Origin: Stomoxys calcitrans | Taxonomy: Eukaryota; Arthropoda; Insecta; Diptera; Muscidae | Assembly (NCBI RefSeq): GCF_963082655.1 | Contig: NC_081552.1 | Span: forward strand, 99,087,823-99,151,822 | DNA: 64,000 nt | Direction: 5' to 3' | Position numbers and translations under genes: made by a program | Part shown: in pieces, positions 48,521 to 53,869 of the stretch | Layout of the letters: each line of letters begins with the position of its first letter | How positions within the stretch are numbered: the stretch's first letter is position 1 | Notes under the pieces: generated by a model | Told to the model about the DNA's origin: nothing | Databases searched by the model: none | The model's input: only the letters and a program-made list of their open reading frames with translations

Positions 48521-49951
48521 CACAGTGGGCCAAATGGCAAAAAAATTGGAAATAAGTCTACAACTTTTTATCTGTTGATTTTAGCCATACAAAATGTTCT
48601 AGACATTTGTAGAGGAGGACATAGGCTTTCAGAAAAGTGCTGTTGTTGGTCCATATCTTTAATACAGGGTGAGCTACAGGGTGTCAAAGTTGACCACTTT
48701 TGACTTCTCCAAGCTTCTGGGGGCCATAACTTTTGATCTACTCAACCGATTTACATGATTTAGGACTCTAGAGAAAGAGCTTGACAAGATCTAAAAAACT
48801 TATGCATAAAGTACCATGCCATCGTGTACTGTTAAGGAGTTATGAATTGTTTAATTTTAAAATATGAAAATTTGGCCTTGGTTTTTTTCAGTGTTTTTTA
48901 AATAACTCCGTCAATTTTAAAGCTATAAACTTCATACTTCACACAAATTATGCCAGCATATGTGTGCATAAAATACAAAAGGAATCACGTGAATATCTTT
49001 GGCGGTTTAAAAATGGCATCGTTTTCAATATGAAAAATATTTTTTTTGTCAAAAAATTGCAAAATTTTTCAAAAAAGATACTCCCATTTCCTTTAAGTTT
49101 TCGCAAACTTTGGCCATCAAAGCATTATCATTTCTTTCCATTTTCACAAAGTCGAGGTATTAAGAAAAGTTTTAAGTGCTAATTTGGCTAATTTCGATAT
49201 CAAACAACACCGTTATCTTAAGACCAAAATGGCCAATTTTTTTACTAAACTTCAAAAGTTTCTCACTGGAAAAAAAGTTCCACGGGGATTTTTTCGCTTT
49301 TTTTGAACTTAAATGAAAGCTTAAAATGTTCCCAACATTTTAAGGTATGTCTCGCCATATCCTAGCCATAAATGAGATCGTAGCGATCAAAATACTGAAA
49401 AAAGTCAATTTTCAAGTAGTGCTATATTCATTGCTAAAAAACAAGTATTACGTCACATTTTATTGCAAAGATGTTAAATAAACTTTTATTTGGTAACACT
49501 TCTTCTACAAAACACAAAAAGAATCATGGAAATATCTCTATTCTATTCCATTTTATGGAACCGGCAATAAAAAAGTCAATTTTTCAAAAAAGTCGAATTT
49601 CCCAAATTTTGTTTTTGTTGTCCTAATTGCACATGACACACTATAGCCATATTTACGCAACATACCTTATCGTAAAGGAAATTTTCATACCTTTCCAACG
49701 ATGTATAAAACATTTCTCAACTCGGATTCTATCTACTCTAAAATTCATTTACACTTCATTAAACTCTATATAAAAATGTCTATTTGTGAAATGGAACCTT
49801 ATATGGGGCCTACACTAAAACATTGATAGATTTGCCCAGGGTTTACAATACAAATGTGTTAGAATAAAAAAAGGTCTCCTGCCAAAGTTTAAAAAAATTG
49901 GAATAAAAATATGTGTTTTAGAGCGAAAACACTTCGCATCGGCGTGCGTTT
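48521..49951 (+). repeat. Transib terminal inverted repeat, left arm
   Basis: It mirrors 52439-53869; coordinates x and 102390-x pair throughout. Segments compared in reverse at 48521-48620, 48660-48850, 48964-49182, 49500-49610, 49680-49800 and 49861-49951 are identical. Similarity stops after 'cggcgtgcgttt' at 49951. It carries only short ORFs; the 72-codon one at 48964 is necessarily duplicated at 53426. Confidence 0.95.
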
Positions 49952-49999
49952 ATATGTATATTAGCTACTCCCAAAATAAAAAAGCATTTTAGTTTTGTA
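49952..49999 (-). other. Transposase 3' flank
   Basis: The 48 bases between the stop codon and the left inverted arm. I see no AATAAA on the minus strand here, so the transcript probably ends inside the inverted arm, where a minus-strand AATAAA occurs near 49490. That would place inverted-repeat sequence in the mRNA. Confidence 0.4.
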
Positions 50000-52042: not shown

Positions 52043-52438
52043 AACTTATAAATGTCCTTTACGCCTCTACAAAATATAATGAAGAAAATTTGGATTTTGT
52101 TCAAATATTTATGCAATATATTCACAATTAATGACCCATTTCAGGTATCAGACGCAATCGTAAAAAGGGGTCCAAAGTGCCTCTTTTTACTTACTCTTCT
52201 ATAATTATTTACCTGGACTCGAATTTGGTTAAAAAAAATGACAATGAATTTTTTATGGGTAGGTTTTTTCACATTCATTGATACGGTGGATTTCCTGGGA
52301 ATTCGACATAGCGAAACAGGTAACATTTGTCTGCATCAAATCTTAACACAAATATATATATATATGCAGGTATATTTCTAGGTTACTTTTTATTCAAAAA
52401 TCATCAGCTTACATTAAAAATAGATGTAGGTACTATAC
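52043..52438 (-). promoter_or_regulatory. Transposase 5' leader with candidate 3' splice site
   Basis: On the minus strand, TTCTTCATTATATTTTGTAG ends at 52067, 24 bases before the ATG. The pyrimidine-rich stretch and TAG| make a good 3' splice site, so a 5' untranslated (or short coding) exon may lie further out, toward or in the right inverted arm. A 61-codon frame at 52326-52141 is unrecognised. No TATA box or initiator can be assigned with confidence. Confidence 0.4.
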
Positions 52439-53869
52439 AAACGCACGCCGATGCGAAGTGTTTTCGCTCTAAAACACATATTTTTATTCCAATTTTTTTA
52501 AACTTTGGCAGGAGACCTTTTTTTATTCTAACACATTTGTATTGTAAACCCTGGGCAAATCTATCAATGTTTTAGTGTAGGCCCCATATAAGGTTCCATT
52601 TCACAAATAGACATTTTTATATAGAGTTTAATGAAGTGTAAATGAATTTTAGAGTAGATAGAATCCGAGTTGAGAAATGTTTTATACATCGTTGGAAAGG
52701 TATGAAAATTTCCTTTACGATAAGGTATGTTGCGTAAATATGGCTATAGTGTGTCATGTGCAATTAGGACAACAAAAACAAAATTTGGGAAATTCGACTT
52801 TTTTGAAAAATTGACTTTTTTATTGCCGGTTCCATAAAATGGAATAGAATAGAGATATTTCCATGATTCTTTTTGTGTTTTGTAGAAGAAGTGTTACCAA
52901 ATAAAAGTTTATTTAACATCTTTGCAATAAAATGTGACGTAATACTTGTTTTTTAGCAATGAATATAGCACTACTTGAAAATTGACTTTTTTCAGTATTT
53001 TGATCGCTACGATCTCATTTATGGCTAGGATATGGCGAGACATACCTTAAAATGTTGGGAACATTTTAAGCTTTCATTTAAGTTCAAAAAAAGCGAAAAA
53101 ATCCCCGTGGAACTTTTTTTCCAGTGAGAAACTTTTGAAGTTTAGTAAAAAAATTGGCCATTTTGGTCTTAAGATAACGGTGTTGTTTGATATCGAAATT
53201 AGCCAAATTAGCACTTAAAACTTTTCTTAATACCTCGACTTTGTGAAAATGGAAAGAAATGATAATGCTTTGATGGCCAAAGTTTGCGAAAACTTAAAGG
53301 AAATGGGAGTATCTTTTTTGAAAAATTTTGCAATTTTTTGACAAAAAAAATATTTTTCATATTGAAAACGATGCCATTTTTAAACCGCCAAAGATATTCA
53401 CGTGATTCCTTTTGTATTTTATGCACACATATGCTGGCATAATTTGTGTGAAGTATGAAGTTTATAGCTTTAAAATTGACGGAGTTATTTAAAAAACACT
53501 GAAAAAAACCAAGGCCAAATTTTCATATTTTAAAATTAAACAATTCATAACTCCTTAACAGTACACGATGGCATGGTACTTTATGCATAAGTTTTTTAGA
53601 TCTTGTCAAGCTCTTTCTCTAGAGTCCTAAATCATGTAAATCGGTTGAGTAGATCAAAAGTTATGGCCCCCAGAAGCTTGGAGAAGTCAAAAGTGGTCAA
53701 CTTTGACACCCTGTAGCTCACCCTGTATTAAAGATATGGACCAACAACAGCACTTTTCTGAAAGCCTATGTCCTCCTCTACAAATGTCTAGAACATTTTG
53801 TATGGCTAAAATCAACAGATAAAAAGTTGTAGACTTATTTCCAATTTTTTTGCCATTTGGCCCACTGTG
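52439..53869 (-). repeat. Transib terminal inverted repeat, right arm
   Basis: Inverted partner of 48521-49951, same length. It lies upstream of the transposase, so any promoter here would be duplicated at the other end, pointing inward from both termini. The 72-codon minus-strand ORF at 53426-53208 is the exact mirror of the one in the left arm. Confidence 0.95.

Follow-up and report, generated by a model that had tools for sequence, protein, structure and literature searches.

The transposons nearest to the element described here belong to the Transib superfamily, of which hopper is a member and in which terminal inverted repeats (TIRs) of tens of base pairs are a typical, though not a defining, trait. 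The element occupies positions 48521-53869 of a 64-kb stretch of Stomoxys calcitrans DNA (contig NC_081552.1, assembly GCF_963082655.1), which we call the window, and its TIRs measure 1431 bp. In Table 1 of PMC10299278, transib1-4 of Drosophila melanogaster have TIRs of 40-45 bp and total lengths of 2.2-2.9 kb, and hopper has TIRs of 33 bp within 1.4 kb; like the window element they reside in insect hosts and are grouped with Transib elements, but their TIRs and total lengths are far shorter. In the source sections available, miniature inverted-repeat transposable elements (MITEs) of the Transib type from two Helicoverpa species have TIRs of 13-27 and 36-57 bp, and TransibSU-1_PM has one of 13 bp. 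Hztransib of Helicoverpa zea, a member of the superfamily that is 3518 bp long with a deduced protein of 489 aa (5349 bp and 680 aa here), is stated to have "long TIRs", their length being left to a figure (PMC1852546, seen in part), and in the accessible portions of PMC6562904 and PMC9659126 Transib appears in the reference list only. We met no kilobase-TIR Transib in the open-access literature searched, much of it accessible in part; as Repbase, Dfam and the original Transib paper lay outside that search, absence from print is not shown by it.

Long TIRs are known from another superfamily, and Galileo, a P-superfamily element of Drosophila, is the best precedent for TIRs of kilobase size. 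According to the available portions of PMC3573991, its TIRs are the longest of its superfamily (up to 1.26 kb), they grew by tandem repeats and by recruitment of inner sequence, and the longest never occur in nearly complete copies; the authors regard the long TIR as a convergent trait of different superfamilies. In the arms of Galileo, tandem repeats hold several transposase sites (PMC3688188, likewise in part). Unlike the window element, which has a Transib-type transposase, an intact gene and arms in which no tandem array was detected, Galileo has a P-type transposase, its longest TIRs occur in copies without the transposase gene and its arms are internally repetitive. RAGL/ProtoRAG elements share with the window element a RAG1-like core, heptamer-like ends and a 5-bp target-site duplication (TSD), as far as the portion of PMC7204232 available goes, and yet they carry a RAG2-like gene, for which the window element has no room. 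What stands out at our locus is that kilobase arms occur together with an intact RAG1-type transposase.

Results

Architecture of the arms

Direct alignment of the left arm with the reverse complement of the right gave identity at 1431 of 1431 positions (Table 1), and the identity stops exactly, the next base being mismatched at the inner as well as the outer boundary. An earlier reading made from the sequence alone had described arms of equal length, matched base for base, that render 2862 of 5349 bp palindromic around one transposase gene, and our recomputation agrees, with a palindromic share of 53.5% and a single open frame of 680 aa. In a general repeat search, which ranks independently, no inverted repeat of the window is longer than the arm pair, given there as 1435 nt at "100%"; we read this figure as the 1431 positions plus one mismatch and three further inner matches, the percentage being rounded. 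Chance is no serious explanation of the match. As 109 of 1000 shuffles score equally high as the 49 bases past the inner boundary on the two sides, there is no clear residual similarity beyond the arms. The 95% upper bound on arm divergence is 0.21% (0 differences in 1431 bp), and the recent activity proposed in the sequence-only reading therefore stands in so far as such identity would suit a young copy, whereas arm-to-arm gene conversion would look alike and our data do not separate the two.

The unique part of the element, 2487 bp, comprises a leader of 396 bp, the gene and 48 bp after its stop codon, so that 444 bp of unique sequence lie outside the gene. The arm is AT-rich (GC 0.318); no frame longer than 104 aa overlaps the left arm and hence none its identical partner, and a protein search found no homologue of a 72-aa open frame of the TIR. 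Tandem arrays in the left arm were limited to units of two to three copies, such as 2.2 copies of 17 nt (TRF, minimum score 30), and comparison of the arm with itself gave short weak pairs only (best direct pair 29 nt, 83%, E 0.002), along with imperfect inverted matches of 25 and 45 nt. As both methods yielded weak or short units only, internal repeats were rejected as transposase-binding arrays. No further copy of arm or core was found within the window (E up to 1e-3), and scanning the window with Rfam and for tRNAs gave no match.

Termini, target-site duplication and empty site

Read inwards, both termini give CACAGTG, the consensus heptamer of the recombination signal sequence (RSS), and thus begin with CAC as Transib termini do. 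A scan of the whole element confined CACWGTG to the two outer ends, which are symmetric because the arms are identical. No RSS nonamer was recognisable near the heptamer, the best match to the consensus being 6/9 at a spacing of 9 or 11 bases. The inner end of the arm has no heptamer and resembles the outer end no better than shuffled sequence does, so that the arm is not an element by itself. This weighs against a composite origin, in which two separate elements derived from Transibs, or two solo ends, lying in opposite orientation on either side of a transposase gene, would have moved or become fossilised together. Two long identical arms flanking a gene are indeed the layout of a composite transposon; given the nature of the inner end and the lack of any other arm copy in the window, we regard such an origin as extremely improbable.

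Immediately outside both arms lies the direct repeat CGCTC, which was absent from the earlier account. Transib TSDs are described as 5 bp long and GC-biased (PMC8289069; PMC7204232, both in part), and the GC-rich CGCTC on the two sides agrees with this. When the two flanks were joined with one CGCTC and compared with the window, they aligned without a break to an unoccupied paralogue of the insertion site (Table 1), with 21 of 28 columns identical to the left of the junction and 96 of 129 to the right; the junction was crossed by 1 of 440 high-scoring segment pairs. As judged from sequence, this paralogue supports insertion with exactly these outer ends.

The same evidence bears on a possible artefact of assembly, in which an element with short TIRs would have had one subterminal stretch of 1.4 kb duplicated in inverted orientation to give the palindrome. 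A contig end that had been copied would give exact identity over 1431 bp, and the longest contig of the window transposase's own protein cluster, at 3780 bp, is near the 3918 bp of core plus one arm and exceeds the approximately 2.5 kb expected if contigs break at the arm/core junctions; that contig could also consist of the core and parts of both arms. Against an artefact, the heptamer and the same 5-bp duplication are found at both outer ends, on different flanks, and the joined flanks match the unoccupied paralogue, so that each outer end is a real junction. Assembly error would have to replace an inner part of one arm exactly, up to one sharp boundary, and the window contains no N; we consider it improbable.

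Table 1. Positions of the element's parts, its target site and the dispersed repeats, numbered along the window
Feature	Position	Strand	Remarks
TSD, left copy, CGCTC	48516..48520	.	direct repeat of 53870-53874
Left TIR, 1431 bp, starts with heptamer CACAGTG	48521..49951	+	1431/1431 identity to reverse complement of 52439-53869
Short unique stretch from stop codon to left arm, 48 bp	49952..49999	.	from arm and gene coordinates
Transib (RAG1-like DDE) transposase, 680 aa, single open frame	50000..52042	-	catalytic D271, D385, E599
Unique 5' leader of transposase gene, 396 bp	52043..52438	-	in-frame stop 6 nt before ATG
Right TIR, 1431 bp, ends with CACTGTG	52439..53869	-	arm identity and heptamer scan
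TSD, right copy, CGCTC	53870..53874	.	direct repeat of 48516-48520
Unoccupied paralogue of insertion site	20233..20387	+	unbroken alignment of joined flanks, E 7.5e-20
Dispersed repeats with 153-bp units	2312-2764, 9629-10234, 12186-13113, 15289-16352, 18881-20051, 22140-22898, 27422-28345, 35216-36172, 61531-62816 and others	both	

The transposase and candidate transcription signals

The gene encodes a DDE transposase with a RAG1-like core, as is characteristic of Transib, in which all catalytic residues are present and whose fold is predicted to be like that of HzTransib. The element holds one other frame of at least 180 aa, antisense to the transposase, and thus has a single transposase gene with no RAG2-like partner, the Transib arrangement; no frame is long enough for the RAG2-like (kelch) gene that stands beside RAG1L in RAGL elements, and the transposase is not of the P (THAP) type that defines Galileo and its superfamily. 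The earlier assignment to Transib, with intact ends and an open transposase, is upheld.

Residues 1-164 (51551-52042, minus strand) form an N-terminal region that lies outside the solved HzTransib. Its GRP motif (from residue 94) recurs widely: of the 26 aligned rows having at least 70 residues of this region, 14 contain it, and the count across all 31 rows is 16. The region was tried as a nonamer-binding domain and rejected, phmmer giving no credible match (best E 1.4); the A1 profile aligns the motif with the GRP of the RAG1 nonamer-binding region at an i-Evalue of 620, which is not significant.

The arms had also been proposed to hold a promoter and a terminator. By consensus matching only, and in element positions along the gene's orientation, TATA-like words occur in one arm at 1184, 1247 and 1249, and AATAAA first appears in the other arm at 4380 and 4406, the first of these 509 nt past the stop codon. 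Such words are thus present in the arms; however, they are consensus words only, TATA-like words occur in the unique leader as well (1506-1512), and the weaker AATATA lies already 37 nt past the stop codon. If the candidate arm signals were used, the transcript would carry complementary pieces of the arms. The consequences for silencing put forward in the sequence-only reading, in which hairpin double-stranded RNA would feed siRNA or piRNA pathways, are plausible candidates; consensus words are by themselves no evidence of double-stranded RNA.

Relatives of the transposase

The homologues considered here are the best 120 of 178 matches, and the statements of this section hold among these. Contig excess over the gene was compared for rows whose source was lgn alone, which we took for Logan read assemblies. 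The near group, at 46% identity or more, consists of rows P0002-P0023 without P0005 (21 of 22), and the distant group of rows P0025-P0120 less 20 that had other or additional sources (76 of 96); P0001 and P0024 stood outside the comparison. The median excess was 430 nt in the near group vs 935 nt in the distant Transibs (21 vs 76 rows, Mann-Whitney p 3.4e-5), and 402.5 vs 935 nt when only proteins of at least 640 aa were taken (16 vs 59 rows, p 7.4e-5).

These data bear, indirectly, on whether long arms are usual throughout an insect Transib clade rather than peculiar to this copy, which would be compatible with a complete Transib transposon at our locus. In the tree, a branch with SH-aLRT support of 100 sets the relatives of at least 46% identity (18 of 90 rows) apart from the others, and for the window element a read assembly broken where arm meets core would leave 444 nt and the word overlaps. 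On the other hand, the short contigs of relatives may be transcripts, the rows are related rather than independent, short values down to 164 nt occur among the distant rows as well, and the window transposase's own cluster has the 3780-bp contig, longer than the break model predicts. We hold the chances of such a clade trait to be evenly balanced.

Named relatives include P0042 from Stomoxys calcitrans (48% identity over 60% of the query) and P0024 from the moth Eumeta japonica (64% over 31%), both too short for the tree; with close relatives in a fly and a moth, the transposase group may cross insect orders. Searches for the relatives' DNA gave no match in viral contigs, with protein patterns and the 18-base element end, and none in genome contigs, a set that may leave out records of the window's own genome.

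Neighbouring features

Dispersed repeats containing 153-bp tandem units are numerous in the window, in either orientation, and are accompanied by short GACGGACA-type microsatellites; we take these repeats to resemble DINE-1/Helentron-type elements. Near the end of one of them is a hairpin word (48466-48492). The best repeat matches of the left flank stop at 48494-48498, placing the Transib ~22 bp past the end of one repeat copy, and the sequence across the insertion site matches another repeated sequence, at 20233-20387. A mariner-type transposase frame of 243 aa (7354-8085, plus strand), most of whose listed relatives have 342 aa (best identity 87% among the matches listed), is probably a broken copy, and a frame of 142 aa (57672-58100, plus strand) has a sub-threshold match to the DUF4817 helix-turn-helix.

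Discussion

Based on the exact arms, the outer heptamers, the 5-bp TSD, the unoccupied paralogue and the open transposase with its catalytic residues, we conclude that the locus very probably holds a structurally complete, probably autonomous cut-and-paste Transib transposon whose TIRs have grown to 1431 bp. The copy is probably young, and its family is the one from which RAG1, the enzyme used in making antibodies, arose. The claim that this length is atypical is supported against the Transibs with printed TIR lengths (13-57 bp, MITEs included, in the source portions available); the wider claim of an atypical architecture holds for those elements as well, but is tempered by the kilobase TIRs of Galileo and by the "long TIRs" ascribed to Hztransib.

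HzTransib makes hairpins on flanking DNA (PMC6941560, in part). By analogy, the transposase would bind a few tens of bases at the outer tip of each arm, nick at the heptamer and then form hairpins on the flanking DNA, and the excised element would be reinserted with a 5-bp stagger. As the two ends are identical, synapsis would take place between like ends, without a 12/23-type asymmetry, and the remaining ~1.4 kb of each arm would most likely be dispensable for catalysis. The arm probably arose by inverted duplication of subterminal sequence, as described for Galileo; template switching in gap repair after excision is our guess at the cause, and either the youth of the copy or mutual conversion may have kept the arms identical. 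Transcription that began or ended in the arms would yield single transcripts with mutually complementary stretches.

Several points weigh against a complete, mobile Transib with arms of this origin. Within the transposase gene there is one further match to the looser word CACWRTG, at element position 2374 of the opposite strand. At 74.5% over 157 columns the paralogous target has diverged, and the match left of the junction spans a short 28 columns. As the window holds a single copy, there is no copy-to-copy comparison and mobility is unproven; the mechanism is carried over from HzTransib, and we infer the origin and role of the arm. Lastly, TRF and self-comparison of the arms found no internal tandem array mirroring the Galileo binding sites.

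A bolder reading, which we consider improbable, is that an insect Transib clade independently evolved Galileo-like kilobase TIRs around an intact RAG1-type transposase, with arms that hold the start and end signals of the gene and so give self-complementary transcripts and self-limitation through small RNAs.

Our results indicate that an element of the RAG1 superfamily can combine kilobase ends that match at every base with an open transposase. Such an element offers a natural experiment on the amount of terminal DNA that RAG-type machinery accepts, on synapsis between identical ends in the absence of a 12/23-like asymmetry, and on a possible route from long palindromic arms into small-RNA silencing or gene conversion. 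The Transib superfamily would thereby join those with very long TIRs.
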